Positions 15,922 through 44,249 of a DNA stretch of 64,000 bases are shown here, one piece after another. The translations under genes and the position numbers were made by a program. Location of the stretch: contig NZ_JACHJW010000001.1 in the NCBI RefSeq assembly GCF_014203835.1, forward strand, positions 6,894,501-6,958,500, written 5' to 3'. The first letter of the stretch is position 1. Each line of letters opens with the position of its first letter. Source of the DNA: Micromonospora polyrhachis. GTDB lineage: Bacteria; Actinomycetota; Actinomycetes; Mycobacteriales; Micromonosporaceae. A model generated the notes under the pieces. That model was given only the letters and a program-made list of their open reading frames with translations. It ran no database searches and was not told the DNA's origin.

Positions 15922-15943
15922 GACGATCACCTCTCTTCTTAAC

Positions 15944-21122: not shown

Positions 21123-21337
21123 CGGGCGTCGGCGTCGGCGAGCAGGGTGGCCCACCCGGCGATCGTCGGGTCCTCGGCCAGGTCGAGGAAGGACACCTCG
21201 TGCCCGTCGGCCCGCCAGCGTTCTACCAGGGTCATCAGCCGGATCGAGTCCAGCCCGGCGTCGAGCAGGTTGTCGTCGTCGCCGACCGGCTCGCCCAGTA
21301 CCTCGATCACCTGCGCGCGCAGCGTCTCGATGGTCAT
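21119..21337 (-). CDS. Stand-alone aryl carrier protein
   Basis: A 72-aa carrier protein; the phosphopantetheine serine lies in [12 protein letters not shown]. In EntB and DhbB this domain is fused to isochorismatase; here it is a separate gene that overlaps the isochorismatase stop codon by 4 nt. It receives dihydroxybenzoate from the DhbE-like ligase and presents it to the C domain of the NRPS. Confidence 0.92.
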
Positions 21338-21972
21338 GCCGCCACCCCCAGCAGCGCGTCGGCGGCGGACCGGGTGGTGGTGACGTAGCCACAGCGCTGG
21401 GCGACGTGGCGCAGGGTGTCGCGGTGGTGTTCGGCGGTGAAGTCGGCCACCGCGTCGGCCAGCAGGAACGGCTGGATGTCGCGCATGAAGGCGTCCAGCA
21501 CGGTGGCGAGCACACCGATGTGGCCGTACACGCCGGTGACGAGCAACTGGTCCCGCTCACCGAAGAGCGCGTCCAGGTCAGTGCGGACGAAGGCGCTGTA
21601 GCGCCACTTGGTGAGCTGCACGTCGCCCGGTGCGGGGGTGAGCGCGTCGGTGATCGCGGCGGCGCTCGGATCGGCCGGCAGACCGTCGCCCCAGAAGTCG
21701 AGCAACAGCCCGCGCTGCTCGGAGGTCTGCCCGCCGGGCTGGGCCGAGAAGACCACCGGCACGCCCAAATCGATGCAGTGCTTGCGGATCGCCGCGATGT
21801 TCTCCACCACGCCGGGCAGGGGCGTCTCGTGCGTACCGAACGCGTCGAGGAAGTAGTTCTGCATGTCGTGGATGAGCAGAACCGCGCGGGCCGGGTCGGG
21901 CCGCCAGGCCACCCGGTTGGCGGGCAGCTCCGCCTCGGTCGGCAGTGGATAGGGAGCGATGCTGGGCAGCAC
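21334..21972 (-). CDS. dhbB: Isochorismatase (DhbB/EntB N-domain)
   Basis: A 212-aa isochorismatase-fold enzyme that hydrolyses isochorismate to 2,3-dihydro-2,3-dihydroxybenzoate plus pyruvate. It keeps the family Asp ([10 protein letters not shown]) and Lys (LTKWRYSAF). The residue corresponding to Cys of other cysteine hydrolases is Gly ([10 protein letters not shown]), as in true EntB-type isochorismatases. It lacks the C-terminal carrier domain, which is encoded by the next gene. The GTG at 21972 has GGAAGG 7 nt upstream. Confidence 0.92.
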
Positions 21973-21975
21973 GGT

Positions 21976-23586
21976 TCAGCCTTCCTTCGGAGTGGTCGAG
22001 CTGGCGAGTCGGTCCCGCAGGGCGGCGCGCAGGTCCTTGCGACTGACCTTGCCCACGCCGGTGACCGGGAACGTGTCGACAAACTCCACCTTGTCTGGGA
22101 TCTTGTACGCCGCCAGCCCGCGCTGCCGGACGAAACCACGGATCATGGGCGCGGTCATCGGCTCCGTGTCCGGGCGGGCGACGACGAACGCGTACGTCCG
22201 TTCGCCGAGATACGGATCGGGTACGGCGACCACGGCGACGTCGTGCACGCCGGGGTGGGCCAGGATGTGGTTCTCCACCTCCTCGGCGGCGATCTTCTCC
22301 CCGCCCCGGTTGATCTGGTCCTTGGCCCGGCCGGTCACCACGAGGTAGCCGCCGTCGACGACCCGGACCAGGTCACCGGTGCGGTAGAACCCGTCCGGGG
22401 TGAACGCGGTGGCGTTGTGCTCCTCGGCCCGCCAGTAGCCCCGGATCGTGTACGGCCCCCGGGTGAGCAGATGACCCACCTCCCCCGGTGGGACCTCGAC
22501 CCCCTCGTCGTCGACCACCCAGATCTCGTCGTCGGGTGAGATGGGCCGGCCCTGGGTGTGCAACACGATGTCGCCCGGGTCGCCGAACCGGGTGTAGTTG
22601 ACCAGACCCTCGGCCATACCGAACACCTGCTGAACCTGGCAACCGAGGGTCGGGCCGACCCGCCCAGCCACCTCGTCGGCCAGCTTCGCCCCACCCACCT
22701 GCAACACCCGCAGGGTGGACAGGTCGGCGGCGGTGCCGGGCCGGGATGCGGCGTCCAGCCAGAGCAGCGCCAGCGGCGGGACCAGGGCGGTGATGGTGAC
22801 GCCCTCGCGTTCGATGAGCGGAAATGCCGTGGCCGGGTCGGGCCGGGGAGCCAGGACGACCCGCCCTCCGGCGTACAGCACACCGAGGACGCCGGGCGAG
22901 GAGAGCGGGAAGTTGTGCGCCACCGGCAACGCGCACAGGTAGACGGTGTCGCCGGAGAGTTCGCAGATCTCGGCGCTGGCCCGCACGCTGTAGAGGTAGT
23001 CGTCGTGGGTGCGTGGGATCAGTTTCGGTAGCCCGGTGCTGCCGCCGGAGAGCTGGAGGAACGCCAGGTCGGCGGCGGCGGGGCCGGGTGGCAGCGCGGT
23101 CGGTGTGAGGTACAGGTCGGCCAGGGCGGTGTGCTCGCCCGGGTCAGCGGCCACGATGACCCGCGCATCCCCGGCGACCGCGGCCAACTGCCGGTGGTCG
23201 AAGCCCTCGTGCACGGCGGTGGTGATGTACGCGACGGCCTCGGTGTGCGCACAGAAGTAGCCGATCTCGGCGGCCCGGTGGGCGGGCAGCGCGAACACCG
23301 GCAGGGCACCGAGGCGGAACAGCGCGAAGATGACGTCGAAGAACTCCACGACGTTGGGCAGCTGCACCACCACGCGGTCGCCGTGCCGCACGCCGATCCC
23401 GGACAGGCCGGCGGCCAGCCGATCAGCCCGGTCAGCCAGCTCGGCGTAGCTGACCCGGCGCTCGCCCTCGACCACGGCGATCTGGTCGCCGTAGCGCCGG
23501 GCGCAGGTCGCCAGCAGGTCGCTGAAGGTCTCGCCGCGCCAGTAGCCCTGGGCGCGGTAGCGGGCGGCGAACTCTTCAGGCCACAT
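21976..23586 (-). CDS. dhbE: 2,3-dihydroxybenzoate-AMP ligase
   Basis: A 536-aa acyl-adenylate ligase. Motifs include [19 protein letters not shown] (A3), [13 protein letters not shown] (A5), FYRTGDLVR (A7) and the catalytic Lys in [13 protein letters not shown] (A10). [15 protein letters not shown] with Asn in the A4 position is characteristic of DHB/salicylate activating enzymes. It charges the separate aryl carrier protein. It overlaps the isochorismate synthase gene by 11 nt. Confidence 0.94.
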
Positions 23587-24760
23587 CGGACACCCCCAGC
23601 GCGGTCAGGAAGGTACCGAACTTGGCGGTGGTCTCGGCCAGTTCCGCCTCGGGCACCGAGTCGGCGACGATGCCGGCTCCGGCGTAGAGCCGCAGCGTGT
23701 CCCCTTCGGCCAGGCCGCAGCGCACCGCCACCACCCATTCGCCGTCGCCGTTGGCGTCGCCCCAGCCGACCAGCCCGGTGTAGAACCCCCGGTCGAAGGG
23801 TTCGAGTTCGGCGATGGCTGCTCGTGCGTCGGCAGCCGGGGTGCCGCAGACCGCCGGGGTCGGATGGAGGGCGGTGGCCAGGGCCAGCGCCGAGATCGCC
23901 GGATCGGCGACCTCGCCGGTGACCTGAGTGGAGAGGTGCCAGAGCGCCGCCGTACGGACCAGCGACGGTTCGGCCGGTACGTCGAGGCGGGCGCAGAGCG
24001 GCCGAAGGCCAGCGGCGACCGCGTCCACCACCACCGCGTGTTCGTGCCGGTCCTTGGCCGAGGCGAGCAGGGCAGTGCCTCGCCGCGCGTCCTCCACCGG
24101 ATCGGGGTGCCGGGCGGCCGAGCCGGCGATCGGGTTCGCCACCACCCGTGCCCCGAAGCGGGACACCAGCAGTTCGGGGCTGGCCCCCACCAACGTACGA
24201 CCGGCGCCCAGGTCCATCGCGAAGGTGTAACCGTGCGGGTCCCGCCGGGCAAGGGCTCGGGGCAGTGCGGGCAGATCCAGCGGGGTGGTCGCGGTCAGCC
24301 GCAGCGATCGGGCGAGCACCACCTTCGTGTAGTCGCCGCCCCGGATCCGACCGACGGCGCGGCCGACCGCGTCGGCGTACTGGCGGGGCGCGGGCTCGGC
24401 CTGGACGGTGCAGCGTAGTGCGGTAGCCGGTCCAGCCGCCGGGACCGGCGCGAAGGCGGACAGTGGGCCGGCCCGCCGGACCCGCTGTGGGACCACCAGA
24501 TGGGCCGACGCGCCGGGGTCGAAGGGAACCGCGCCGACGACCACGCGGGTCTCGTGGCCGGCCGCCTCGGCGACACCGAGCCCAGCCTGGACCCGTTCGG
24601 CGAGGTCGCCCAGCCCATGCGGTCGGGCGGAGGGCGGTACGGCGAAGTACGTGCCCTCGGCGAGCAGGGTGCCGCGCGGCGAGACGAACAGCGACGACGT
24701 GCCCGGTTCGTAGGCCGCCACCAGTTCGGTGGCGGTGGCGTCCGGCGGGGCGATGATCAC
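23576..24760 (-). CDS. dhbC: Isochorismate synthase
   Basis: 394 aa, chorismate-binding family. Signature parts are [12 protein letters not shown], the active-site [11 protein letters not shown] and [14 protein letters not shown], then [12 protein letters not shown] and [12 protein letters not shown]. It converts chorismate to isochorismate at the start of the catechol branch. The GTG at 24760 has GGAG 8 nt upstream. A 131-bp gap separates it from dhbA, enough for a weak internal hairpin (CCTCG/CGAGG arms) but no own promoter is evident. Confidence 0.92.
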
Positions 24761-24891
24761 GGTGGCGACTCCATTCGACAGGCACGGCGCTGTCCTGCGG
24801 TGACAGATTGTTGAGCTGGACGGCACGGGGTGGTGGCCCCGGGTCCGGGACTGCTCCTCGGGCGGCCGGTCGGACCGCTGCGAGGGCTGGA

Positions 24892-25668
24892 TCAGGCGCG
24901 CAGCGTGGCGCCGCCGTCGACGTACAGGTCGTGCATGGTGATGTGCCGGGCCTGGTCGGAGACGAGGAACAGCACGGCGTCGGCGATGTCCTCGGGGGCG
25001 GCGAGCCGACCCAGCGGAATGCCGACCCGGTACGTGTCCGGTGTGCCGGCGATCACCCGAGCGGAGTCGTCGTCGCCGGTCCACAGTGCCCGCTGCATCG
25101 GGGTGTCGGTCGAGCCCGGGGCGACGACATTGCATCGAATGCCGTGCGGGGCCAGTTCCAGGCCGAGGGACTTCGTGAACATGGTGGCGGCGGCCTTGGA
25201 TGCGGCATAGGCGGCCATGCCGACACGCGGCACGCCGGCGGCGTTGGAGGCGACGGTGACGATCACTCCCTGTCGACGCGGGGTCATCCGTCGGGCCACC
25301 GCCCGGCAGGTGTGGAAGACGCCGGAGGTGTTGACCGCGAAGGTGGTCGCCCAGTCGGTGTCGCGGTAGTCGAGCACCGCCCCGACCCGGAGCACACCGG
25401 CCACGTTGACCAGGATCCCGATCGGACCGAGGTCACGCTCGACGGTCGCCACAACCTCGTCGACCTCTGTCGACTGGGCGACGTCGGCGCGGTAGCCGAG
25501 GATGGTGTCCGGGTGTTCCTGAGCCAGTCGTTGGATCCCGGTGGCTTCCCGGTCCACGGCGGCGACCCGAGCCCCGTGTGCCTGCAGCGCTCGTGCGACC
25601 GCCAGTCCGATGCCCTGGCCAGCACCGGTGACCAACGCGGTCACCCCGGCGATTCCACTCTGGCGCAT
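24892..25668 (-). CDS. dhbA: 2,3-dihydro-2,3-dihydroxybenzoate dehydrogenase
   Basis: A 258-aa short-chain dehydrogenase: cofactor motif [16 protein letters not shown] segment and catalytic Y-x-x-x-K in [12 protein letters not shown]. It oxidises the isochorismatase product to 2,3-dihydroxybenzoate, making it the EntA/DhbA counterpart. The ATG at 25668 has GGAGG 6 nt upstream; an in-frame start further up would overlap the control region. First gene of the siderophore operon, just behind an iron box. Confidence 0.93.
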
Positions 25669-25710
25669 TCCATTCCTCCCGATCAAGGGGTGCCCGACCA
25701 TCCACACTAT

Positions 25711-25729
25711 GTAGGTGAGGCTAGCCTTA
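25711..25729 (-). promoter_or_regulatory. Iron box before the siderophore biosynthesis operon
   Basis: GTAGGTGAGGCTAGCCTTA matches the IdeR/DmdR consensus at about 15 of 19 positions. A second, weaker AGGCTA-centred half (about 25726-25744) overlaps it, so two repressor dimers could bind side by side. It lies 42 bp before dhbA and should repress the whole 25668-16009 operon when iron is plentiful. Confidence 0.82.
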
Positions 25730-25958
25730 GTTAGGCTAGGGCAACATAACCCCTCGGGACGCTCCTGTCACCCTCCAACACCCCAATAAACCGAAGTTTG
25801 TCGATTGAATGACGTGTTGATCTCGACCTACGTCGGAGAAGTGTCGAAGGTCACGGGGCGTCGAAGACCGCGCAGTACTCGACCGGGCGCAGGCGACGAC
25901 CCTGTTCGTGGCTGGCACCGCCCTCGTCCGCCAGCGGCTGGCTCTGCGCCAGATCCGA

Positions 25959-26855
25959 CTACGTCACGCTGGGGGTGACCATCCGCGCCGCAGCGGCAAA
26001 GGCCCGGACGTGTGCGCTCTCACCTTCGGCGGCCCACACCAGGACGAACTCGGCAGGGGCACCGTCGATGACGGGGACGTAGGTGATGTCGGGGCGTTGG
26101 AAGTACTGGCCAGCCTGGGCCGTGGCCAGGGCGATACCCTGGCCCGCCCCGATAATCGTGAGCCCAGCCTGGACGGTGTCGACGTCCGGGCCACGGTGGA
26201 TGGGCCTGCCGCTGGGAGTTCGCGTGGGGTGGTGGAACTCCTGCCAGTACGCTGGTGCCGGACTTGCGGCATAGATGGCGGTTTCCCCGGCCAGATCCTC
26301 CAGCGTGATCTGGTCCCGCCGAGCGAAGGGATGACCGGTCGGCACCGCCAGGATGCGTCCCTCCCGCAGCAGGCTCGGACCGACCACCAGGTCGGGTTCC
26401 TCGATCGGAAGCATCGTGGCCAACACGTCGACCATGCCCTCCCGCAGCGCGGCAACATGATCGCTGAGCGACGCCTCCAGGACCACCTGCACCTCGCAGC
26501 CCGGATGGCGGTCTCGGTAGGTGCTGATCACTCGGAAGAGGACGGCACCCGTCGCGGGTCCCAGGAATCCCACGCGCAGGATGTGGCTAGCGTCTCGGGC
26601 AGCGGCTGTCGCACGGGCGACGGCCTCCTGGATGGCGCGGTGATGCGGGGCGATGTCGTCATACAGGCGGCGACCGACCTCGGTCAGCTGGACGTGGCGG
26701 CTGGTGCGCTCGAACAGCGCCGAGCCGATACGACGTTCCAGCTTGGCGATGGTCTGGCTGACCCGGCCGCTACTGATGTGCAGCCGCTCGGCGGTACGAC
26801 GGAAGTGCAGTTCCTGCGCGAGAGCGAGGAAGGTCTCGATCTCGTGACGCTCCAT
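25959..26855 (-). CDS. LysR family transcriptional regulator
   Basis: 298 aa with the N-terminal LysR helix-turn-helix (EIETFLALAQELHFRRTAER, then LHISSGRVSQTIAKLERRIG) and a C-terminal two-lobed effector domain beginning at ILRVGFLGPATGAVL. It is divergent from the DHFR-fold reductase gene, with 172 bp between the starts, and by the usual LysR rule may control it. It is separated from dhbA by 290 bp and convergent with nothing; a role in siderophore control is not supported. Confidence 0.9.
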   Translation of the reverse strand: MERHEIETFLALAQELHFRRTAERLHISSGRVSQTIAKLERRIGSALFERTSRHVQLTEVGRRLYDDIAPHHRAIQEAVARATAAARDASHILRVGFLGPATGAVLFRVISTYRDRHPGCEVQVVLEASLSDHVAALREGMVDVLATMLPIEEPDLVVGPSLLREGRILAVPTGHPFARRDQITLEDLAGETAIYAASPAPAYWQEFHHPTRTPSGRPIHRGPDVDTVQAGLTIIGAGQGIALATAQAGQYFQRPDITYVPVIDGAPAEFVLVWAAEGESAHVRAFAAAARMVTPSVT

Positions 26856-26980
26856 CACACCCCGCTATCGCTTAGTTCTGCTAATCGGACGTTCCGCGAC
26901 TAGCTATTGTTCCAGGTGAGACCCGGCGGTAATGATGAAGATCCGGCGGCGGGAGGCGGCAGCCACCGTCGCTGTCCGTT

Positions 26981-29153: not shown

Positions 29154-30194
29154 TCACTCCGCGAACGGTTCTTCGGGTTTGACCGCGATGACCAACTCCC
29201 AGGTACCGGGCAGCACCTCCACCTTCTCGAAGCCGACCTCCTGCAGCAGTCCGGTATAGAACTCCGCGTCCCGCAGGCGACTGAAGGAACTGTCGACACC
29301 GATGAGGAAGTAGCTCCAGAAGAACTGCATCGCCAGCCGGTCCGGGGTACGGAACTCCTCGCAGATCAGCAGCAGGCCACCTGGTGAGAGGGCCTGGTAG
29401 GCACTTTCGACCAGTCTGCGGGAGACGTCGTTCGGCCAGTCGTGCAGCACCCGTACGAAGGCCAGCGCGTCGTAACCGGACGGCAGCGGCTCAGCGAAGA
29501 AGTCGCCTCCGACGAACCCCAGCCGCTGCGGATCAACACACCGGTCCCGGGTCCGGTCGACCAGCGGCGCCACCTCCGGCAGATTGAAGACGTCGACCAG
29601 CAGGTCCGGAGCGTCGCCGAGCACCTGAGCGGCGAGCGTGCCGTCCCCTCCGCCGACGTCGAGGAAGCGGCGTCGTCCCGGCCACAACCGGTACGCGTGG
29701 CGATGAAACGTCTCGATGGCTGGGCCGAGCCCCGCGGACATGCTCTGTTCGAAGGCCGCGGTTTGCTCGTGGGTCTTGGGGGGCCAGCCGAAGTCGTCGT
29801 CGGGGATGGCGATCTCGCCCCGCAGGCTCTCCGCCAGTCGCCCGTGCAACTGCCGCCACGGGTACCGGTCCCGATCACGCTCGATCGCGTCCGGCCCGAC
29901 GACCGCCACTACCGCAGCCCGGAGTCCGGGAACGGCGGCGTACGTGGCCTGCTCGATGTCGTCGTCGGGCTCGTCGCGTACCACGCACCCGAGACTCTCC
30001 AGACAGTCCAGGAACTTGTAGAGCCGCACTGGTTGCAGTCCGAACCGTCCGGCGAGGTCACCGAGGCGGGCCGGGCCCGACTCCAACGTGTCGAGCAGCC
30101 CGAGGTCGAGTGCGGTCGTCAACACGTCCATGGCCTTGGCCCCGTTGGCCAGCAGACTCATCAGTGCTCGGGGGGACAGGGTTACGGTCGTCAT
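29154..30194 (-). CDS. SAM methyltransferase (O-methyltransferase-2 family)
   Basis: 346 aa: N-terminal winged-helix dimerisation domain (about 1-100) and a class I methyltransferase domain with SAM motif FLDVGGGDGTLAAQVL and the His-containing HDWPNDVSRRLVE loop. The family methylates phenols, and in actinomycin/sibiromycin-type pathways relatives C-methylate 3-hydroxykynurenine. The ATG at 30194 has GAGGGA 7 nt upstream and overlaps the TDO-kynureninase stop codon (ATGA). Position in a tryptophan-degrading operon suggests an aromatic kynurenine or anthranilate substrate; this is inference. Confidence 0.85.
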   Translation of the reverse strand: MTTVTLSPRALMSLLANGAKAMDVLTTALDLGLLDTLESGPARLGDLAGRFGLQPVRLYKFLDCLESLGCVVRDEPDDDIEQATYAAVPGLRAAVVAVVGPDAIERDRDRYPWRQLHGRLAESLRGEIAIPDDDFGWPPKTHEQTAAFEQSMSAGLGPAIETFHRHAYRLWPGRRRFLDVGGGDGTLAAQVLGDAPDLLVDVFNLPEVAPLVDRTRDRCVDPQRLGFVGGDFFAEPLPSGYDALAFVRVLHDWPNDVSRRLVESAYQALSPGGLLLICEEFRTPDRLAMQFFWSYFLIGVDSSFSRLRDAEFYTGLLQEVGFEKVEVLPGTWELVIAVKPEEPFAE

Positions 30195-32674
30195 CGACGG
30201 ATCCCTCGCCATTCCTGCTCAAGTGCGTCCATGAACTCGTCGATCTCGTCCAGCGTGTTGTAGACGTGCGGACCGACCCGCAGGTACCGCCGCCAACTAC
30301 AGATCAGGTTCCGCTCGGCCAGCCGGCGTTTGACCGCCTCGCCGTCGGGGACGTCCAGGCACATGACACCACCGCGCCGGTGCGGCTCCACCGGGCTGAC
30401 CACGGGTATGCCGGCTGCCTCGGCGCGGGTCAGGATCCGCTCCGTACACGCCAGGGAGTGCGCCCGGATCGCGTCAATGCCGAGCCCGGTCAGCAGGTCC
30501 AGCCCGGCCTGGGAGACCAGTGAGGTGAGTGGGAACGGCGTGCCGCCAGCGAACCGTTGGGCACCGGCCGCCCAGCCGGTCGACGGCTGGAAGGTCAATG
30601 CCCGGTCGCCGGCCTGCCAGCCGGTCGCTGCGGGTTCGAGGACGGGCAGTAGCTCCGGACGGACGTACAGGAAGGCGGTGCCGACCCCGCACAGCCACTT
30701 GTGCGCGCCACCGAGAACGAAGTCGACGCCGAGCGCTGCCACATCGAGTGGCATGACACCGACGCTCTGGAAGGCGTCGACGACCACCAGGGCACCGACG
30801 TCGTGGGCCCGGGTCACCAGGCGCGACAGGTCGATGGTGGCACCGGAGGAGTAACTGGCGTGCGGTACACACACCAGTAGGGTCCGTTCGTCGATCCGCT
30901 TCTCCAGGGCGTCCTCGTCGAACTGCGGACCACCGGAGTCGACCATATCGAGTTGGGCGCCGTACCGGCCGTATGCCTGCCAGATGAACGGTACCGTCGG
31001 AAACTCCAGGTTGGTCGTCACGACCCGGTTGCGGGGCGCGCGGTAGTCGAAGCAGGAAGCGACCCTCGCCAGCAGCGTGCTCAGGTTCGCGTCGGTGATC
31101 ACGCTTCCCGGCGGAGCGCCGATGAACGTGGCTATCCCGTCGGCGTATCTCTGGAGGCCGTCGTGCCACCCCATCCACACGTCGTCCCGCCAGGTCCGCA
31201 GCGTCTCCCAGTAGTGGGTCAGGACGTTCTGCGCTGCCTGGGGAACCGCGCCCGTGGAATTGCTGTTCAGGTAGACGCAGGTTTGTAGCAGGGGGAACTG
31301 GGCACGTAGCGCGGCCCGGGAGTCGTCGTCCAATTGTCGTGTCCCGTCGACCACAGGCTCCGGATCAGGTTCACTCACTTGATTCAGCCTCCAGTCGGTT
31401 CGGGCGGGTGGGGAGTCCTGGGCGACAGTGGTGAAGACCGGGATGGATCGGATCGCTGCCAGATAAGGCGTCCCCTCGGTGTATCCGGTGCCCGGCCGCG
31501 TGGTGCCGAGCATGCGGGTCGCCAGCCGGTAGTGGGTCTGGCGCCACTGGAGGAGCGCTGTGGCGAACTCTCGCATCCGCTGCTCGATCAGGTGCTGCTC
31601 CGACTTGGTCAACCGGCCGGCCCGAATCGCACTCTGGTACGCCTGGTCGACGGAGAGCTGTCCGGCCAACACCCGCTCCCGGATCTCGGGCGCCGCCCGG
31701 TAGGCGGCGGAGGCCAACCGGGAATCCTCCGGGAGGCGACACAGCGACTCGACCAGCTTGTAGGAACGTGACTGGATGGCGCTGGCTCCCTCGGTGTAGA
31801 CCCGGAACGTGCGGAACGAGTCCGGCTGCATCGTGGCCAGCAGGGAGAAGAGGGGTGCCGCAAGGTCGAGCTGCTCCCGCGCATAGGCCAGTCGCTCAGC
31901 CGCCAGGTGCGCCAGGCCCTCGGACAGGGCGCTGATCGTGGCGTGCAACTCGACGGCGAGGGATGCGAATGTGCACTCGTAAGCCTGAAGGACCCGGATG
32001 AACAGGTATTCGTCGTGCATCACGTAGACCGGCAGCAGGCTCACCCCCAGGGCGGTGCGCTCCGCTGCGGTCTGGTCAGCGAGGGCCACCGCGTGCAGGG
32101 CCGTAGCCGCTGCGGCCGGATCCGCGGCGGTGTCCGGTATGCACAGCCCGATGCGGGTGAGTACGGGCGATGTGGCGCGCAGCCCCAGCCGGTATCGCTT
32201 CGTCACCAGGGATGCTGCCGGGCGGTGCATCGGAAGCAGGTCGGTGGTGCCCGTCTGGGCGGCCAACTCGAAGGCCAGGATGTCGGCTATCAGCTGGAGG
32301 AAGAGGCGATCCCGCTGTCGGCGGGGCTCGGTCAGGTCCACCTCGGCCCCGGCTCCGTCCGGTTCCGGTGCCGTGGTCATTGGCAGTAGGTTCAGGGCAA
32401 GGTAGCTGCGGTAGTCGTATCGGCCGTCCCACTTGTCGAGCGTGACGTCGAGGAAGTCGCGGAGCAGTCCGATCGGGGTATGCCCCTTCGCGACCGGGAC
32501 CGCGGTACCACCGGCCGCCGGCACGGTGGTTTCCGCCCGGACCTGATCGAGGAGGGCGAGTAGTTCCTTGTCGACGAAGTGCTTACCGGTCCGGTGGAGC
32601 TCCGCCACCACCGCGGGGTAAGGAAATCTGTCGGGATCAGCCCCATCGGACAGCCAACTTGTCAACTCGCGCAC
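30191..32674 (-). CDS. TDO-like / kynureninase fusion protein
   Basis: About 827 aa. Residues 1-410 resemble tryptophan 2,3-dioxygenase: VMHDEYLFIRVLQAYECTF (helix A region), SAIQSRSYKLVES and the heme-ligand His in QTHYRLATRMLG (about residue 379). Compared with canonical TDO the distal-pocket His is Leu (VLQAYE) and the carboxylate-binding Arg appears as Lys. Residues about 440-827 are a fold-type I PLP enzyme of kynureninase type: CVYLNSNSTGAVP, WMGWHDGL, PLP Lys in GGAHKWLCG (about 659) and a terminal RVGPHVYNTLDEIDEF. It should turn a kynurenine into an anthranilate plus alanine. The start is uncertain: GTG at 32674 chosen, weak GGGA upstream. A frame open further upstream would overlap the TDO gene. 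Confidence 0.82.
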   Translation of the reverse strand: MRELTSWLSDGADPDRFPYPAVVAELHRTGKHFVDKELLALLDQVRAETTVPAAGGTAVPVAKGHTPIGLLRDFLDVTLDKWDGRYDYRSYLALNLLPMTTAPEPDGAGAEVDLTEPRRQRDRLFLQLIADILAFELAAQTGTTDLLPMHRPAASLVTKRYRLGLRATSPVLTRIGLCIPDTAADPAAAATALHAVALADQTAAERTALGVSLLPVYVMHDEYLFIRVLQAYECTFASLAVELHATISALSEGLAHLAAERLAYAREQLDLAAPLFSLLATMQPDSFRTFRVYTEGASAIQSRSYKLVESLCRLPEDSRLASAAYRAAPEIRERVLAGQLSVDQAYQSAIRAGRLTKSEQHLIEQRMREFATALLQWRQTHYRLATRMLGTTRPGTGYTEGTPYLAAIRSIPVFTTVAQDSPPARTDWRLNQVSEPDPEPVVDGTRQLDDDSRAALRAQFPLLQTCVYLNSNSTGAVPQAAQNVLTHYWETLRTWRDDVWMGWHDGLQRYADGIATFIGAPPGSVITDANLSTLLARVASCFDYRAPRNRVVTTNLEFPTVPFIWQAYGRYGAQLDMVDSGGPQFDEDALEKRIDERTLLVCVPHASYSSGATIDLSRLVTRAHDVGALVVVDAFQSVGVMPLDVAALGVDFVLGGAHKWLCGVGTAFLYVRPELLPVLEPAATGWQAGDRALTFQPSTGWAAGAQRFAGGTPFPLTSLVSQAGLDLLTGLGIDAIRAHSLACTERILTRAEAAGIPVVSPVEPHRRGGVMCLDVPDGEAVKRRLAERNLICSWRRYLRVGPHVYNTLDEIDEFMDALEQEWRGIRR

Positions 32675-32747
32675 GGACGTATCCCAACGTTCAGATGAGA
32701 TGATCGCGGACAGTGACGACCCTGTGCTGTCAGAACCAGTCAGTACG

Positions 32748-33470
32748 CTAGGCGGGGCTCGCGACGTGCTGATCGCCACCAGCACCGCCCGCCCCGGCAA
32801 GGTCGACACGCACCTGCCACAGCTCCGGAAAGAGCCGGTGGTCAATCAACTTGGCGAGCATGTTCGCCGGACTGCCCTTGGTGCCGATCCGGCCGTGGCC
32901 GCCGATCCGGACGGCGAGCTTGTAGTGACGTACCCGCCACAGCGAGACCCGCTCGTCCCACTCCACCATCGCCTCGGCCAACCGGTAGCAGGGGTGTGCC
33001 GGATCCCCCGCATAGAGTGTCGGTAGATCGAGGTGCTGCTCGGCGAGGAACCTGGTGAACGCCGGGCCGAGCCGCCGGCTCGCGGTCTGGATCTGGCGCC
33101 ACCCCGGCGACTCCGCGCCGGAGCCGTTGCCGAGCGCCGGTTGGAGCGCCTGGAAGACGGCCGGCGTCAGATGATCGAGCATGTCCAGTTGGTCGGTGAC
33201 GAGCCGGACTCCGAGCGTCGCTCTGCCCAGCAGCATCTCGGCGCGTCCCGGCTCGCCGGCGTCGACCTGGTTGGCCGCCTCGGCCAACTCGGCCGCCGCC
33301 AGTTTGAGCCACAGCTCGCTGGACTGGTGCACCACCTGAAAGAGCAGTTCGTCGCGGTGGATCATTTCCTCCCCGCGTCGTTGCAGATCGAGCAACTCGT
33401 CCGTACGCATGTAGCGCGCGTAGTCCGTGGCACCGTCGCCGGGCAGCACAGGCGCGTAGTCCCGCTTCAC
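32748..33470 (-). CDS. Tryptophan 2,3-dioxygenase family enzyme
   Basis: 240 aa, heme dioxygenase. Conserved features are HRDELLFQVVHQSSELWLK with the distal His, the Arg-containing SPGWRQIQTASRR loop, proximal heme-ligand His in WRVRHYKLAVR and GTKGSP near the C-terminus. It opens the indole ring of tryptophan to N-formylkynurenine. The GTG at 33470 has AAGGGA 6 nt upstream. It heads the operon TDO, TDO-kynureninase fusion, methyltransferase. No kynurenine formamidase or 3-hydroxylase is visible in the window. Confidence 0.88.
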   Translation of the reverse strand: MKRDYAPVLPGDGATDYARYMRTDELLDLQRRGEEMIHRDELLFQVVHQSSELWLKLAAAELAEAANQVDAGEPGRAEMLLGRATLGVRLVTDQLDMLDHLTPAVFQALQPALGNGSGAESPGWRQIQTASRRLGPAFTRFLAEQHLDLPTLYAGDPAHPCYRLAEAMVEWDERVSLWRVRHYKLAVRIGGHGRIGTKGSPANMLAKLIDHRLFPELWQVRVDLAGAGGAGGDQHVASPA

Positions 33471-33542
33471 AGGGCTTCCCTTCCGCCGGGGCAGGTGTTC
33501 TCGGACACGACCCAGCACGGGTCCATGATCGTTGCGCGGCCC

Positions 33543-33572
33543 ATTATGCAGTGATCGTCAACAATATGTCAC
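33543..33572 (-). promoter_or_regulatory. Possible promoter of the kynurenine operon
   Basis: On the minus strand GTGACA (33567-33572) and CATAAT (33543-33548) are 18 bp apart, a fair match to an HrdB-type -35/-10 pair in an AT-richer stretch. It would start transcription about 65 bp before the dioxygenase gene. Confidence 0.35.
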
Positions 33573-33717
33573 GCGTTCTTGGGGCTTGTTTTTCTCGACC
33601 AGGGAGGTCAGCATGCACCACCACTGACACAGTCGGACGCAGCCAACACGTACCACTGCCGTGCCGAACAGGAGTTGGACGGCGACAGGGGGAGCCTGGG
33701 CGGGCTACCCAAGCAAA

Positions 33718-33760
33718 CGCCCCGGGTGCCGCCGCCATCACGGCAGGCGAACCCGGGGCG
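33718..33760 (-). terminator. Terminator after the small secreted-protein gene
   Basis: A hairpin with a perfect 10-bp outer stem (CGCCCCGGGT/ACCCGGGGCG) and an inner GCCG/CGGC pairing. On the minus strand it is followed by TTTGCTT. It begins 18 bp after the stop of the gene at 33779 and isolates that gene from the dioxygenase operon. Confidence 0.75.
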
Positions 33761-33778
33761 GGTGAGGTCAGCCGACCA

Positions 33779-34132
33779 TCACCAGATCCGCACCTCGTAC
33801 ACGCTGACAGTGTTGCTGCCGAAGCCGACTCCCTGCCATTTCTCCAGAGTGCTCGTGTAGTACTGGCTACCGAACTGGTAGTTGACCGTCACCTTGTTGT
33901 TGCCCGACGTGATCTGGTAGACGCCGCCGATGTCCACCGCCACAGCGCCGGAGTTGGCGAAGCACCTATTGGTGCCCAACCCTCCACCCAACGAGATGTC
34001 AAGCTTGAGGAAGTCCGTCCGGTTTCCGCAGGCGACCGAGTTTATGGCGAAGGCAGGGCTTGCTGGAAGCGCGAAGGTCAGGGCGAGGGCGGCCGCCGCT
34101 CCAAGGGTGAACTGCTTCAGACGCTTTCTCAT
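33779..34132 (-). CDS. Small secreted beta/gamma-crystallin-like protein
   Basis: 117 aa with a classic Sec signal peptide: RKRLKQF, hydrophobic GAAAALALTFALP, then cleavage near ASPAFA-INS. The mature 85 residues are beta-rich with two Cys (SVACGNR, TNRCFAN) that could form a disulfide. The pattern resembles Streptomyces metalloproteinase-inhibitor/killer-toxin-like proteins of the beta/gamma-crystallin fold; this is a fold-level impression. The ATG at 34132 has AAAGGA about 11 nt upstream; a TTG at 34141 is possible. It stands between the NRPS operon and the kynurenine operon, with its own terminator. Confidence 0.7.
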   Translation of the reverse strand: MRKRLKQFTLGAAAALALTFALPASPAFAINSVACGNRTDFLKLDISLGGGLGTNRCFANSGAVAVDIGGVYQITSGNNKVTVNYQFGSQYYTSTLEKWQGVGFGSNTVSVYEVRIW

Positions 34133-34319
34133 GCCAGGCAAGGTCCTTTCTGGTCCGCGACAACCTCGGGATCGACCGATGCCTATGGCACTCTATACCC
34201 GTCGACAGCTTCCCGGGCGCACGGTCTGACGCGTGACGGAACGGTGGGCTCCCGGTTCGGCAGCCAGAACTGGACATACGGCGATCCGCCCGGTAGCGGA
34301 GAACGGTGACAAGAACCGG

Positions 34320-34347
34320 GGTGAGCCGGGCATCGGCCCGACCCACC
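34320..34347 (-). terminator. Possible terminator of the NRPS-PKS operon
   Basis: Imperfect 12-bp inverted repeat (10 pairs) with a 4-nt loop, just 15 bp past the stop of the last NRPS gene. No clear T-run follows on the minus strand, so efficiency is uncertain. Confidence 0.4.
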
Positions 34348-34362
34348 CCGATTGTCACCGAC

Positions 34363-37300
34363 TCAGCCGACCGAGACCTTCTCGCCGTCGACCTTCGCCT
34401 CAGCCAGGCGCCGTTCCCGCTCCTGCGCGCCGATCAGGTCGTCGGGCAGGGAGTCGGGCACCTCGGTGTCGAACCGGCGCAGCGTCTTGATCATGAAGCC
34501 GCCGCACGTCACCAGCATCAGCAGCACCCCGAACACCAGGTACGAGAAGCCGATCCCCCGGCCCTCACCGACACCGATCAGTGCGCCGACCGAGTCGGCA
34601 AGCGCGCCGCCCGGGGCGAACATCGGCTCGAACAACGCACTCGCCCCGGGGGCCACCAGCGCGAACCCGATCGGCAACGTCGACCACGAAATCGTCTGGT
34701 TGAGTGCGAACACCCGACCGTGGTACCGCTGCGGCACCTTGACCTGCACGATCGTGGCGTAGATGCCCTGCGCGGTGGTCATCGCCATGGCCATCCAGAA
34801 CACGCCGATGCCGATGGCGACGACCGACGGGTGCACGCCGATCAGGAAGCAGCCGATGGCGGTACCGAAGTTGCCGATCAGCACCCCGATCATCCGCCGG
34901 TGCCGGGGACCACCCCAGAGCGACATCAGCACACCACCCGCGATGCCGCCGAGCGCCTCCGCCAGGGCGACCTGCGCCACCTGCGTCTGGGTCGCGAACG
35001 ACAGCACCAGCGGGGTGATCAGCACCAGTGCCGGGGCTAGGAAGATGTTGCCCAGCGAGAAGTAGCCGAGCATCAACCGGAAGCCCCGGTGGTTCCACGA
35101 GTAGCGCAGGCCGTTGACGATCGCCACCAGCAACCGCTCCTTCGGCCGCCAGCCGAGCAGGTCGGGGAAGCGGATGAAGGCCAGCGCCACCACGGCGAAG
35201 ATGTAGCTGCCGATGTCGATCAGCAGGATGCCCTTGAGGCCGATCGCGGCCAGCAGGCCCGCCGCGATGACCGGCATCATCAGCATCGCGAAACCGTTGG
35301 ACATCTGGGTGATGCCCATGGCATGCCCGAGGTAGCGCTTGGGCACCAGCTGCGGTACGGCCGACTGGAAGGCGATCCGCTGGAACGACGACGCCACCTG
35401 ACTCAGTGACACCAGCAGGTAGATGTGCCAGAGCTGGAGATTATCCGACCAGAGCAGGGCAGCGAGGATCACCTGCAACGAGCCGGAGGTGCAGCTGGCG
35501 ATCATCATGATCCGACGCCGGTTCACCCGGTCGGTGATGGCTCCCGCCAGCGGCAGCATGAGCACGCCGCAGAGTAGTGCCAACGCCCACAGCAGACCGA
35601 GGTTGGTCACCGAGTTGGTGGTCTGGTAGAGCCAGATCGGCAGCGCGAACGCGGTCAGCGCCGACCCGGTGGTCGAGACCACCTGGCCGAGGGTGACCGC
35701 CACGAACCGACCCATGCTCGGCTTGACGACCTTCCGGCCGGTCGCCGCAACCGCGTCCGCCTGCCACCGGTCCCGGACCGTCCAGGCGGCCAACTCACCC
35801 CGGGCTTCCGGACCCATCGCCGAGATGTCGCCGGCCACCACCGCCGGATGCACGGTGGTGACGATCGCGGCGAGTTCTTCCGCACGGTACTTGAGGAAGA
35901 AGTGCCCGGCCTGGTCCAGCACGACCAGCCCGAGGGTGTCACTGAGGAACTGCCACTCGATGTACCGCTCGGTGAAGTAGTCGGTCACCGGATCCTCGGA
36001 GCCGACCACCGAGATGATCGGTGCGCGCAGCTTCTCGGCTCCCCGGTCGAGCAGGCCGGTGAAGTACTCCTCCGAAGCCCGGGAGTCGGCCCGCATGTTG
36101 CTGATGATCCGGTCAGCCTGCTCCGGGTCCAGTTCCTCGGTGTCGACGCCCATCGACTTCAGCCAGTCGGCGTAGTGCCGGTTACTCTTGAGCGCCTCCA
36201 GCTTGTTACGAATCGCCGAGAACGGCCCCTTCGGGCGGGCGAACGGGAACATCGCCCCGATGTAGATGGCGTCGATTTCCCGACCGGCGGCCTCGACCTT
36301 GCGCGCCACCTCGGCGGTGATCGCGCTACCCACGCCGCAGTGACCGTAGAGCGCGATCGGTCCCTCGATCCGCTCCACGATCTCATCGGCGACCCGGCTG
36401 GTCAGCTCGTCGAAGGGCAAGCCGTCCTCGTCGAGTCCGACGTCGTGCCCGGGGATCGCCAGCGAGTACAACGAGTGGCCGGACGGCAGCGCGTCGGCCA
36501 GCGGCTGGTAGACGATGGCGCTACCGCCGCCGTAGGGCACACAGACGTAGGTCAGTGTCCGCTTCCCGGCCGGAATCGGCTTGGTCAGCTCGTAGAGCAG
36601 GCGACGCGGCCCGTCGTCCTCGGCCGACCCGGTCATGAAGGCCGCCAGGTCGCGGATCGTCCGGTGCTGGAACAGGTCCATCACACCGACCGCACGACCG
36701 TTCTGGTTCACCTTGCGGATCTTCGCGACCACCTGGGTGGCCAGCATCGAGTGGCCGCCCAGGTCGAAGAAGTCGTCGTCGATACCGAGCGTGGGTACGG
36801 CCAGCACCTCCGACCACATCTGCGCCAGCATCCGCTCGGTCTCGTCCCGGGGCTCGACCAGTTCGACGGAGGACTCGCGGGACACCACCGGAGCGGGCAA
36901 CGCCTTACGGTCCAGCTTGCCGTTCGGCGTCAACGGCAGGACATCCAGCGTGACGAAGGCGTTCGGCACCATGTACTCGGGCAGCGAGTCCTTGAGCGCG
37001 ACCCTGAGGTCCGCGCTCTGCGCCGAGCCGACGACGTACGCGGTCAGTCGCTTGTCCCCGGGTACGTCCTCCCGCACGATCACGACGGCGTCGGTGACCC
37101 CGTCCTGGTCACGCAGTGCGCTCTCAATCTCACCCAGCTCGATCCGCAGGCCGCGCAACTTGACCTGGTGGTCGATCCGGCCCAGGAACTCGATCACGGC
37201 GCTCGGTGCCGCGTCCGGTGAGCCGATGCTCGACTCGTGGTTCGGCGAAGCCCCGGCCGGGTCGGCCGCCGGATCCGCCGCCCGCCAGCGGGCCAGGTCA

Positions 37301-39924
37301 CCGGTGCGGTAGAGCCGGGCACCCGGGGTCGTGGCGAACGGGTCGGGAACGAACCGCTCGGCGGTCAGCGAGGCCCGCCGATGGTAGCCCCGGGCCAGGC
37401 CCACCCCACCGATGTAGAGCTCCCCGCTGACCCCGACCGGCGCCGGGTTGAGCTGCTCGTCCAGCACGTACAGCCGCAGGTTGTCGATGGGTGTGCCGAT
37501 CGGCACGCTGGTCAGCCCGGCCAGCGCCGCCGGGGCACAGTGCCACGAGCTGACGTCCACGGCGGCCTCGGTCGGCCCGTACAGGTTGTGCAGCTCGCAG
37601 TGGGGGAACCGGCCGGTGAAGTCGATCGCGGCGGCCAGCGGCAGCTCCTCACCGCTACAGATCACCCGACGCAGGCTCGTGCACGCCTCGATCCCGTCCT
37701 CACCGAGGAACACCGTCAACATCGACGGTACGAAGTGCGTGGTGGTGACCCGCTCGGAGATCAGCAGGTCGCGCAGGTAGCCGGCGTCCTTGTGCCCGCC
37801 GGGCTTGGCCAGCACGATCCGCGCCCCGGTCTGCAACGGCCAGAAGAACTCCCACACCGAGACGTCGAAGCTGGCCGGTGTCTTCTGCAGCACCGCGTCG
37901 TCGCCGCCCAACCCGTACCGCTTCTGCATCCAGTCGAGTCGGTTGACGATGCCCCGGTGGGTGTTCGGCACCCCCTTCGGGCGTCCGGTCGAGCCCGACG
38001 TGTAGATGACGTACGCCAGGTTGCTGGCGGTGGCGGTCGGCTCCGGGTCGTGCGTGGGCTGGTCGGCCCACTCCGACTCGTCGTCCAACGCCAGGATCCG
38101 GGCGTCGGTGGCAGGCAGCACGTCCCGCAGCCGGTCGAGCACCAACACCACCGGTACCGCCGCGTCGGCGACCATGAACGCCAGCCGGTCGGCCGGGTAC
38201 TCCGGGTCCAGCGGCAGGTAGCCGCCACCGGCCTTGAGCACCCCGAGCAGCCCGGCGACCAGTTCGACGGAACGCTCCGCGCAGACCCCGACCAGGGTCT
38301 CCGGCCCCACGCCCTCGGCGCGCAGCCGGTGGGCGATCCGGTTGGCCATCGCGCTCAGCTCGGCGTACGACACCGAGCGCCCCTCGAAGGTGACCGCTAC
38401 CGCGTCCGGGGTCCGGGCGGCCTGCTCCTCGACCAGGCCGTGCAGGGTGGCCGTGTCGGGGAAGGCGCTGCTGGTGTCGTTGAGGGTGTCCAGCAGCAGC
38501 CCACGTTCCTGCGGTGCCAGCAGGTCCAGCTCCGACACCCGGGCGGCCGGGTTGGTGACGATCGACCGCAGCAGGGCGCGGAACCGGTCGGCCATCCGCT
38601 GCACGGTGGCCCGCTCGAACAGGTCGGTGTTGTAGACAAGCTTGCCCCAGAGCCCGCCGGTGACCTCGACCAGGTGCAGCTCGAAGTCGAACCGGGTGGC
38701 CCGCAGCTCCATCGGGGTCCACTCGAAGGTGACCGCCGTACTCTCCGACGCCTGCGCGAACCGGCCCATCTCGTAGTTCTGCAACACGAACATCGACTGG
38801 AACACCGGCGACCGGCTGACGTCGCGTGGCAGGTTCAGCTCCTGCACCACCTTGGCGAACGGCACCTCGGCGTGTTCGAAGCCGTCCAGCACCCCCTGCC
38901 GGGTGCGGGCCAGCAGTTCGGTGAAGGCCGGATCGCCGGCGAGTTCGGCGCGCATCGGCAGCATGTTGATGAACATGCCGACGACGTTCTCCAGCTCCGG
39001 CGCGGACCGGCCGGCGACCGACGCGCCGACGGCGAAGTCGTCCTGTCGGGAGTGCCGGGCCAGCAGGACCTGGTAGGCGGCCAGCAGCGTCATGAACAGC
39101 GTGCCGCCCCCAGCCCGGGTCAACTCGGCCAGCCCCTCGGTGACCTCGCCGTCCACGGTGAACTCCACGAAGTCACCGCGATAGGTCTGGGTGGCCGGCC
39201 GGGGCAGGTCGAGCGGCAGCTCCAGCGGGGTGATGCCCGATAGCCGCTGGATCCAGTAGTCGAGGTGTGCCCGGGACTGCGCACCGTCGAGCGACTGCGC
39301 CTCCCAGTGCGCGAAGTCGCCGTACTGGACCGGCAGCTCCGGCAGCGGGCGGTCCTGGTACAGGGCGATCAGGTCCCGTATCAGCACGTCGACCGACCAG
39401 CCGTCACCGACGATGTGGTGCTTGGTCAGCAGCAGCACGTGGTCGTCGTCGGTGATCCGGATCAGCAGTGCCCGCAGCAGCGGACCGTTGGCCAGGTCGA
39501 ACGGCTCCAGCACCGCGTCGTCGACCAGTGCCTGCGCGGCGGCCTCGTCGACAGCGTCGACGACCCGCAGCGGCACCTCGACGGCGTCGGCGACGACCAC
39601 CAGTGGTCGGCCGTCCTCGTCGGCCGGGAAGCGGGTCCGCAGCGCCTCGTGCCGCTGGGTCAGCCCGGCCAGCGCCGTCCGCAGCGTGTCCACGTCGAGC
39701 GGGCCACGGACCCGCAGTGGTACGGCGATGTGGTAGGCGGCCTCGCCCGGAGCGATCTGGTCCATGAACCAGACCCGCTCCTGGGCGAAGGAGAGCGGCG
39801 GGACGGTGCCCGCCGGCCGCGGTGCGATGGTGACGGCGGCTGATGCGGCTCGGCGTTTGCGCAGCCGTTGCGCTATCAGCGCCTCCCGGGCGGCGGTCCG
39901 CTCGGCGTCCTTCAGGTCGGTCAT
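34363..39924 (-). CDS. NRPS C-A(Ser)-T-TE fused to an MFS transporter
   Basis: 1853 aa. C domain (KHHIVGDG near 170), A domain (YTSGSTGRPKG near 641), T (GGHSMLA near 1056), thioesterase (about 1100-1370) and a C-terminal MFS transporter of about 12 helices (1410-1840). Specificity residues read D-V-W-H-I-S-L-V-D-K, the well-known serine code. The TE nucleophile elbow is GHCGVG, with Cys (about residue 1196, codon TGC at 36337-36339) in place of Ser; the His is in DQAGHFFLK. The MFS part starts at GRFVAVTLGQVVSTTGSAL and ends with a charged cytosolic tail. It is the last gene of the operon and should add Ser, release the product and export it. Its ATG overlaps the previous gene's stop. Confidence 0.93.
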   Translation of the reverse strand: MTDLKDAERTAAREALIAQRLRKRRAASAAVTIAPRPAGTVPPLSFAQERVWFMDQIAPGEAAYHIAVPLRVRGPLDVDTLRTALAGLTQRHEALRTRFPADEDGRPLVVVADAVEVPLRVVDAVDEAAAQALVDDAVLEPFDLANGPLLRALLIRITDDDHVLLLTKHHIVGDGWSVDVLIRDLIALYQDRPLPELPVQYGDFAHWEAQSLDGAQSRAHLDYWIQRLSGITPLELPLDLPRPATQTYRGDFVEFTVDGEVTEGLAELTRAGGGTLFMTLLAAYQVLLARHSRQDDFAVGASVAGRSAPELENVVGMFINMLPMRAELAGDPAFTELLARTRQGVLDGFEHAEVPFAKVVQELNLPRDVSRSPVFQSMFVLQNYEMGRFAQASESTAVTFEWTPMELRATRFDFELHLVEVTGGLWGKLVYNTDLFERATVQRMADRFRALLRSIVTNPAARVSELDLLAPQERGLLLDTLNDTSSAFPDTATLHGLVEEQAARTPDAVAVTFEGRSVSYAELSAMANRIAHRLRAEGVGPETLVGVCAERSVELVAGLLGVLKAGGGYLPLDPEYPADRLAFMVADAAVPVVLVLDRLRDVLPATDARILALDDESEWADQPTHDPEPTATASNLAYVIYTSGSTGRPKGVPNTHRGIVNRLDWMQKRYGLGGDDAVLQKTPASFDVSVWEFFWPLQTGARIVLAKPGGHKDAGYLRDLLISERVTTTHFVPSMLTVFLGEDGIEACTSLRRVICSGEELPLAAAIDFTGRFPHCELHNLYGPTEAAVDVSSWHCAPAALAGLTSVPIGTPIDNLRLYVLDEQLNPAPVGVSGELYIGGVGLARGYHRRASLTAERFVPDPFATTPGARLYRTGDLARWRAADPAADPAGASPNHESSIGSPDAAPSAVIEFLGRIDHQVKLRGLRIELGEIESALRDQDGVTDAVVIVREDVPGDKRLTAYVVGSAQSADLRVALKDSLPEYMVPNAFVTLDVLPLTPNGKLDRKALPAPVVSRESSVELVEPRDETERMLAQMWSEVLAVPTLGIDDDFFDLGGHSMLATQVVAKIRKVNQNGRAVGVMDLFQHRTIRDLAAFMTGSAEDDGPRRLLYELTKPIPAGKRTLTYVCVPYGGGSAIVYQPLADALPSGHSLYSLAIPGHDVGLDEDGLPFDELTSRVADEIVERIEGPIALYGHCGVGSAITAEVARKVEAAGREIDAIYIGAMFPFARPKGPFSAIRNKLEALKSNRHYADWLKSMGVDTEELDPEQADRIISNMRADSRASEEYFTGLLDRGAEKLRAPIISVVGSEDPVTDYFTERYIEWQFLSDTLGLVVLDQAGHFFLKYRAEELAAIVTTVHPAVVAGDISAMGPEARGELAAWTVRDRWQADAVAATGRKVVKPSMGRFVAVTLGQVVSTTGSALTAFALPIWLYQTTNSVTNLGLLWALALLCGVLMLPLAGAITDRVNRRRIMMIASCTSGSLQVILAALLWSDNLQLWHIYLLVSLSQVASSFQRIAFQSAVPQLVPKRYLGHAMGITQMSNGFAMLMMPVIAAGLLAAIGLKGILLIDIGSYIFAVVALAFIRFPDLLGWRPKERLLVAIVNGLRYSWNHRGFRLMLGYFSLGNIFLAPALVLITPLVLSFATQTQVAQVALAEALGGIAGGVLMSLWGGPRHRRMIGVLIGNFGTAIGCFLIGVHPSVVAIGIGVFWMAMAMTTAQGIYATIVQVKVPQRYHGRVFALNQTISWSTLPIGFALVAPGASALFEPMFAPGGALADSVGALIGVGEGRGIGFSYLVFGVLLMLVTCGGFMIKTLRRFDTEVPDSLPDDLIGAQERERRLAEAKVDGEKVSVG

Positions 39925-43094: not shown

Positions 43095-43279
43095 CGGGCG
43101 GCCTCCCGTACCGACCGGGGCCGCATGTCGGTCCAGACCTCGTCCACGTGCGCCAGGCACTCGGCCCGGGTGCCCGTGAACCCGGCGTCGTGCCAGCCCG
43201 GGGGAAGCTCCCGGTCGGCCGACCAGATCGAGTACTGCTCCTCGTCGTTACGGACGACGACAAAACGGGGCTCGCTCAT
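43091..43279 (-). CDS. MbtH-like A-domain chaperone
   Basis: 62 aa with the MbtH signature: NDEEQYSIW, LPPGW, and VDEVWTDMRP. The residue after the conserved Trp is Ser instead of the usual Pro. MbtH proteins bind and activate adenylation domains, here most likely those of the Asn and Ser modules directly downstream. Start and stop both overlap neighbours by 1-4 nt. Confidence 0.94.
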   Translation of the reverse strand: MSEPRFVVVRNDEEQYSIWSADRELPPGWHDAGFTGTRAECLAHVDEVWTDMRPRSVREAAR

Positions 43280-44229: not shown

Positions 44230-44249
44230 TGGTTCTCCTTGGGTCCCTG

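Follow-up and report, generated by a model that had tools for sequence, protein, structure and literature searches.

A predicted four-gene Micromonosporaceae operon encoding a two-domain TDO-like heme oxygenase and a kynureninase-like partner

The window analyzed here, a 64,000-nucleotide stretch of the Micromonospora polyrhachis genome, carries on its minus strand a short gene of the tryptophan 2,3-dioxygenase (TDO) family, a long open reading frame (ORF) and a methyltransferase gene (Table 1). The long ORF consists of a TDO-like part, designated TDOL, and a class-V PLP part, designated KYNL. The first-pass annotation had described it as one frame joining a TDO-like heme domain to a kynureninase-type PLP domain, and this architecture was confirmed, as TDOL matched PF03301 with 54.6 bits and KYNL matched Aminotran_5 with 122 bits and KYNU_C with 38.4 bits. 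The methyltransferase gene belongs to the same operon and lies beyond the range covered by that annotation (30191-33470). Judging from gene order and sequence comparison across genomes, the conserved unit is an operon of four genes encoding the short TDO, TDOL, KYNL and the methyltransferase; roughly one in six of the Micromonosporaceae genomes that were searched contain it, normally with TDOL and KYNL as separate genes. A gap of about 0.85 kb between the end of the neighboring NRPS gene and the operon holds one weak promoter match on the operon strand (one sigma-70-like match in 33300-34500 versus a mean of 0.1 in shuffled sequences).

Table 1. Features of the operon and its surroundings, in window coordinates.
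Feature	Position	Strand	Remarks
Short TDO-family oxygenase	32748..33470	-	GTG start at 33470 gives 240 aa; the open frame reaches back to 33518
Gln of the short TDO at the XcTDO Arg117 position	codon 33141-33143	-	hand-placed from motif position
Fused ORF (TDOL + KYNL)	30191..32845	-	one open frame, 884 aa
TDOL, first part of the fused ORF (predicted TDO-like heme oxygenase with two domains)	31379..32674	-	
Candidate start of TDOL	GTG at 32674	-	
Distal Leu of TDOL	31988-31990	-	residue 286 of the 884-aa ORF, counted by hand
Proximal His of TDOL	31532-31534	-	residue 438 of the 884-aa ORF
Junction element	31376..31392	-	putative ribosome-binding site GGAGG, 31388-31392; GTG inside the frame, 31376-31378
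KYNL, kynureninase-like class-V PLP enzyme	30191..31378	-	C-terminal part of the fused ORF
SAM methyltransferase (Methyltransf_2)	29154..30194	-	ATG overlaps KYNL stop (ATGA)
Sigma-70-like promoter match upstream of the short TDO	33543..33572	-	weak, consensus match only
Terminal NRPS module, C-A-PCP-TE	34363-39924		major-facilitator transporter domain at end
NRPS/PKS cluster	43279-62220		A-PCP-KS, A-PCP-C, PKS, TauD-type dioxygenase
Catecholate-siderophore-type gene set	9674-26858		periplasmic binding protein, FecCD permeases, C-A-PCP-reductase NRPS

TDOL scored 57.6 bits against the TDO equivalog model (TIGR03036) and thus did not pass its cut-off of 390.7 bits. A profile alignment to 1yw0, the TDO of X. 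campestris (XcTDO), with its His55 and His240 as the distal and proximal references, bore out the earlier observation that the TDO-like part retains the proximal His and has Leu in place of the distal His. With a TDOL profile of 14 rows covering the TDO-like half, 112 relatives were found in named genomes, and the best 80 of these, together with three from a plasmid collection, make up the 83 loci examined. The locus scan used the peptides HDE[YW]LF[IV]R and TEGASAIQ, and the sample is therefore biased to loci that keep them; the distal Leu and Arg117 lie just outside both peptides. The distal position was Leu in 84 of 84 TDOL rows, Phe51, Arg117 and Ser123 were each retained in 84 of 84, and the proximal His240 was present in 83 of 83 rows, one further row being gapped. 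Phe replaced Tyr113 throughout (84/84), and Thr254 was found in 81 of 84 rows.

The structural model of TDOL (pLDDT 91.6, pTM 0.93) was built without heme. Its residues 198-421 matched the TDO core (2nox; Z 18.1, rmsd 2.9, 218 aligned), residues 14-420 matched PrnB (2x67; Z 17.6, rmsd 3.7, 270 aligned, 12% identity) and residues 15-418 matched IDO1 (6e46; Z 16.9, rmsd 3.9, 269 aligned, 16% identity), where rows no more than 1 apart in Z count as ties and a common fold is no proof of function. Neither PrnB nor IDO was among the 15 PDB sequences matched by the TDOL profile at E ≤ 1. On the basis of the model, TDOL is predicted to be a TDO-like core joined to an IDO/PrnB-like front domain, and to represent a little-known branch of the heme oxygenases. 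Model and alignment together reveal a helix-bundle fold of the heme-protein type and an invariant His at the ligand position, in keeping with membership in the HDAO superfamily. TDO, IDO, PrnB, MarE, TyrH and SfmD are all members of a single superfamily of His-ligated heme proteins and have very different reactions.

Loss of the distal His alone is no proof of a new reaction, because the genome's other TDO (positions 6100-7203 of locus L113, read by eye) and human IDO1 both have Ser at this position. For IDO1, the titles of S167H mutant structures identify residue 167 as Ser, and we take this residue to be the equivalent of the distal His. TDOL stands out by combining an invariant Leu with the extra domain and the partner genes. 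Plasmid records annotate the protein as 'hypothetical protein' or 'tryptophan 2,3-dioxygenase family protein', and no description of the operon or of the TDOL family was found in the open-licence literature, as judged by title and start of abstract, in searches of which one was weakened by the comma in the enzyme name. Searches of this literature for the roles of individual residues likewise gave no result.

The separate TDO gene preceding TDOL had been described as canonical, with both His residues in place. The His residues are indeed present, with His55 in 74 of 75 partner rows (one gap) and His240 in 73 of 75 (two gaps), but the protein is not canonical in other respects. It matched PF03301 with 77.6 bits and, at 117 bits, also failed to pass the TDO equivalog cut-off. 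The position of XcTDO Arg117 is occupied by Gln in 23 and Lys in two of the 25 Micromonosporaceae partner rows (Gln in the window), whereas Arg was found in 48 of the 50 partner rows outside this family (one Ala, one gap). An insert is missing as well: 58 residues lie between two landmarks that are 110 residues apart in XcTDO, while in five Rhodobacteraceae partner rows this stretch is long, with 108 residues.

The model of the short TDO (pLDDT 89.1) was closest to the 2-oxindole-forming monooxygenase MarE (Z 22.5 and 22.2; rmsd 3.3, 217 aligned and 24% identity for the row with Z 22.5), while XcTDO gave Z 19.0, rmsd 2.5, 212 aligned and 33% identity; the family profile scored 192 bits to XcTDO versus 67 to MarE. 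In MarE, helices F and G are absent and Arg118 binds the substrate carboxylate (PMC11904535); the sequence of its active-site loop is SLGGR (PMC12312684). The active-site loop of the short TDO reads GTKGS in the window, and Thr occupies the loop position in 62 of 75 rows. Loss of Arg117 counts against free tryptophan as the substrate, and the Gln in its place, on sequence grounds, suggests a substrate without a free carboxylate, for which no version of the route considered below yet accounts.

The kynureninase-type label given earlier to the PLP part stood insofar as the best PDB match of the KYNL family profile was kynureninase 1qz9 (160.4 bits), followed by a cysteine desulfurase (104.0 bits). 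It did not extend to equivalog level, as KYNL reached 74.5 bits against the kynureninase model (TIGR01814; cut-off 246.4) and scored higher, at 119.7 bits, against the SufS model, whose cut-off of 475.1 was also missed. The methyltransferase was nearest to RedM, with a score of 45.7 bits for SibL.

The joining of TDOL and KYNL in one frame proved to be rare. The fused protein was matched at E ≤ 1e-100 in 63 of 354 same-family genomes; 49 of these carriers had two separate matches, 11 had one half only above the threshold, and three, namely the window genome, G559 and G525, were fused. On a tree of the PLP half (44 rows), in which the place of the window is weak (75/54), the three fused rows need three changes, and well-supported branches force three. 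Separate gains of the three fusions are the simplest reading; one gain followed by two losses also gives three. When 61 loci were read for the TDOL stop, 52 gave one and nine gave no row; some of the rows are one genome represented twice, and two of the 52 are the fused loci L116 and L117. The stop lay inside ATGA or GTGA in 50 of 50 split rows, including L012 and L054 (one genome), where it came earlier than usual, and base-by-base reading of nine split loci placed the beginning of the PLP gene at this overlap in most of them. The window junction retains a GGAGG and a GTG at the usual place of the PLP start, now in frame, and this internal GTG is likely to be the original KYNL start. In the other two fused genomes the PLP start is likewise retained and the usual stop is present in another frame. 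All three fusions can be explained by an indel in the poorly conserved tail of TDOL. Each fused genome is assembled as a single contig, and the comparison covered one genome only of the window's genus, so that in any one of the three a sequencing or assembly error may also be the cause of the fused frame; tolerated indels in the tail fit equally well.

The TDOL-KYNL fusion is therefore incidental; what matters here is the operon and the TDOL family. The fusion was rejected as a functional unit on the grounds of its frequency (3/63), the three changes on the tree and the uniform position of the stop in split loci (50/50). Since the genes are split in most carriers, a channelled fusion is not the conserved feature, and the separation of the two parts in relatives, which the first-pass annotation had named as grounds for refuting its proposal, was observed. 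In five of the genomes searched the TDOL and KYNL matches did not adjoin, lying on separate contigs in G212 and about 65-167 kb from each other in G440, G453, G526 and G468, reflecting either a dispersed cassette or a match to a second TDOL.

Among the 24 Micromonosporaceae loci of the window's type, TDO and TDOL were present in all 24, KYNL and the methyltransferase in 22 each, and every other sense-strand family in seven or fewer. Two loci were incomplete, one (L038) stopping at a contig end and the other (L053) carrying only a 43-residue piece of KYNL. Outside the Micromonosporaceae (other actinomycetes, Chloroflexota, Photorhabdus and Cysteiniphilum), the usual order was TDO-KYNL-TDOL. Two more families often came after it, with 24 of 59 loci for each; the representatives scanned were a flavin ring hydroxylase and a PF04199 enzyme, PF04199 being a family that contains kynurenine formamidase. 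Other genes after TDO-KYNL-TDOL were, again by scanned representatives, an aminotransferase, a methyltransferase, ATP-grasp ligases and a transporter. Over the 83 loci (best 80 of 112 relatives plus the three from plasmids), TDOL had a TDO-family gene in range in 74 and none in range in nine. Locus L097, from Actinomadura chibensis, has TDOL immediately ahead of a kynureninase whose 249.5 bits exceed the equivalog cut-off of 246.4, and the neighbors of this pair are two ketosynthase-type genes, an acyl-CoA dehydrogenase and a pre-ATP-grasp ligase.

Several loci departed from these arrangements. Nitric oxide synthase (NOS) genes were found near TDO-KYNL-TDOL in four of the 83 loci (L026, at 15642-22483, L080, L090 and L092), L026 lying on a 203-kb plasmid of Micromonospora zamorensis. 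In Actinoplanes italicus (L074, 8716-11203) and Smaragdicoccus niigatensis (L077, 9884-12924), TDOL lies next to a sodium/hydrogen exchanger gene, with no TDO or KYNL match in range. Four Streptomyces loci (L027, L055, L058 and L061) combine NRPS matches with TDO and TDOL, without KYNL, and a hydroxykynurenine-type NRPS building block is possible there; the annotation of L027 includes LysW and sulfate-activation genes.

The operon lies between a catecholate-siderophore-type gene set, which also includes a DAHP synthase, an AMP ligase, a chorismate-binding enzyme and a LysR regulator, and NRPS/PKS genes, among which are two tandem proteins with lanthipeptide-dehydratase N-terminal domains, one with a thioesterase domain in front. 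The NRPS/PKS cluster was tracked across genomes by its lanthipeptide-dehydratase-like gene, taking the best place per genome at an E-value of about 1e-240 or better and dropping weaker matches; close orthologs were found in 65 of the 354 same-family genomes. In the 24 genomes with both cassette and NRPS/PKS, the two were about 23 kb apart in the window only; in 11 genomes they share a contig but lie 318 kb or more from each other, and in 12 they are on different contigs, which fixes no distance between them. Co-occurrence of the cassette with the dehydratase-like gene (Fisher p 4e-5) is confounded by genus, both being mostly from one genus, and was used neither for nor against a link. Supply of the adjacent NRPS was rejected as the general role of the operon, given adjacency in only one of 24 genomes having both. 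Some observations speak against this rejection: the fused genome G559 has NRPS-type matches (30-44% identity) from about 3 kb past its methyltransferase onward, and an adenylation-type match lies about 9 kb away in G525; among the 24 Micromonosporaceae loci, NRPS/PKS-type matches within 10 kb of the cassette occurred in three (L034, L037 and L046).

The same genome carries, at 4.79 Mb, a conventional set of TDO, kynureninase and flavin hydroxylase. This TDO scored 305.9 bits, also below the equivalog cut-off of 390.7; the kynureninase passed its cut-off (403.1 versus 246.4 bits); and the flavin hydroxylase was nearest to VioC (164.3 bits), below the cut-off of that model. A 2-oxo-3-hexenedioate decarboxylase-like gene near the set is cut by the end of the stretch. 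Because a conventional set is present elsewhere, the operon probably belongs to an additional, specialised pathway.

Hydroxy-(methyl)anthranilate branches of the actinomycin/sibiromycin type use TDO, hydroxylase, kynureninase and methyltransferase steps, and the gene set of the operon, with its predicted indole opening, ring oxygenation, side-chain cleavage and methylation, fits a methylated hydroxyanthranilate route. The reading that we tentatively favor, at somewhat less than even probability, has TDOL acting as a ring hydroxylase that depends on heme, in a pathway whose product is a methylated acid of the hydroxyanthranilate type and whose operation does not involve the adjacent NRPS. The short TDO would open the indole ring of tryptophan or of a derivative with its carboxylate masked or absent, the latter being proposed because the Arg is lost. 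TDOL, with a His-ligated heme, a retained carboxylate-binding Arg and a non-polar distal residue, would then add one oxygen to the aromatic ring of the intermediate, a kynurenine or an anthranilate, and so take over the step of the flavin kynurenine hydroxylase; KYNL would cleave the side chain in a kynureninase-like step, and the methyltransferase would cap or C-methylate the ring. This reading draws on the recurrent four-gene set of the Micromonosporaceae loci, the flavin ring hydroxylase and PF04199 families of loci elsewhere, the kynureninase after TDOL in Actinomadura chibensis, the conserved pocket residues and the model of TDOL, and the conventional set at 4.79 Mb. A bolder proposal, which we consider rather doubtful, is that TDOL founds a new HDAO subfamily bridging TDO and IDO/PrnB and acts as a heme-dependent kynurenine/anthranilate hydroxylase, the heme counterpart of flavin kynurenine 3-monooxygenase, with a carboxylate-blind TDO as its partner. 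Several results count against the methylated hydroxyanthranilate route, including the KYNL replacements at the positions of His204, Tyr226 and Asp132 together with the higher SufS score, the methyltransferase being nearest to RedM, and the nine of 83 TDOL loci without a TDO in range; in addition, the flavin ring hydroxylase often found in clusters outside the Micromonosporaceae could itself carry out the hydroxylation assigned to TDOL.

The altered oxygenation that the first-pass annotation had offered as its second option stays plausible, as each of the two oxygenases departs from the canonical type and every one of the 84 TDOL rows has the Leu. In the main rival to the methylated hydroxyanthranilate route, which we judge unlikely, the two oxygenases would be indole oxidisers of the MarE type, the short TDO making a 2-oxindole or mono-oxygenated indole that TDOL re-oxidises before KYNL cleaves the side chain. 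The MarE-like model of the short TDO (Z 22.5 and 22.2 versus 19.0 for XcTDO) and the insert missing in both proteins point in this direction, and the PF04199 enzymes of other cassettes could presumably be isatin-hydrolase-like; however, identity in the structural alignment is higher to XcTDO (33%) than to MarE (24%), the family profile also prefers XcTDO, the window loop is GTKGS and not SLGGR, and a kynureninase beside TDOL points to ring opening. That TDOL is instead a non-catalytic or regulatory partner in a mixed oligomer with the short TDO is improbable. It would agree with the TDO-family gene in range of TDOL in 74 of 83 loci and with complementary losses in the Micromonosporaceae, where TDOL lacks the distal His and the short TDO lacks Arg117, but the other TDOL pocket landmarks checked are fixed or nearly so and nine loci have no TDO-family match in range; moreover, the complementarity is not general, because the partner outside the Micromonosporaceae keeps Arg117 in 48 of 50 rows.

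We regard as very improbable a machine that channels tryptophan to anthranilate within one fused protein and feeds the adjacent NRPS, despite the single open frame, the juxtaposed oxygenase and kynureninase-like parts, the NRPS/PKS genes on the same strand and the NRPS-type matches beside the fused cassette of G559: three of 63 carriers are fused, the tree needs three changes, the internal start and GGAGG are retained, and cassette and NRPS/PKS are adjacent in one of 24 genomes. That TDOL uses nitric oxide to nitrate an aromatic ring, whether in general or just in the loci close to NOS genes, is extremely improbable, since NOS matches were confined to four of 83 loci, with none in the other 79 within the range examined, the Pfam scan of window ORFs gave no NOS match either, and the sole precedent known to us for nitration of this kind is TxtE, a P450.

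TDOL, with its TDO-like core, IDO/PrnB-like architecture, fixed Leu and kynureninase-type partners, offers a natural test of the roles of the distal residue and the front domain. Because the operon is compact, with four genes, expressing it in a laboratory host should give access to the product. Compared with TDO of X. campestris and R. metallidurans, TDOL has the same core fold, proximal His, Arg117, Phe51 and, mostly, Thr254, and differs by the distal Leu, Phe for Tyr113 and about 200 extra N-terminal residues. It resembles PrnB of the pyrrolnitrin pathway and IDO1/IDO2 in its two-domain architecture, at the low identities and with the lack of a PDB sequence match given above. The short TDO shares with MarE the nearest fold and the absence of the F/G insert, but has Gln in the window where MarE has Arg118, a different active-site loop and different gene neighbors; at 33% identity to XcTDO, it differs from that enzyme by the loss of Arg117 (in the Micromonosporaceae) and the missing insert. 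In KYNL, by hand numbering, Trp64, Asp201, Lys227, Trp256 and Arg375 are identical to those of P. fluorescens kynureninase (1qz9), while Gln replaces His204, His replaces Tyr226 and Val replaces Asp132. Finally, the operon has the same set of steps as the actinomycin/sibiromycin-type branches, with a heme protein where those have a flavin hydroxylase, and with a methyltransferase only distantly like SibL.
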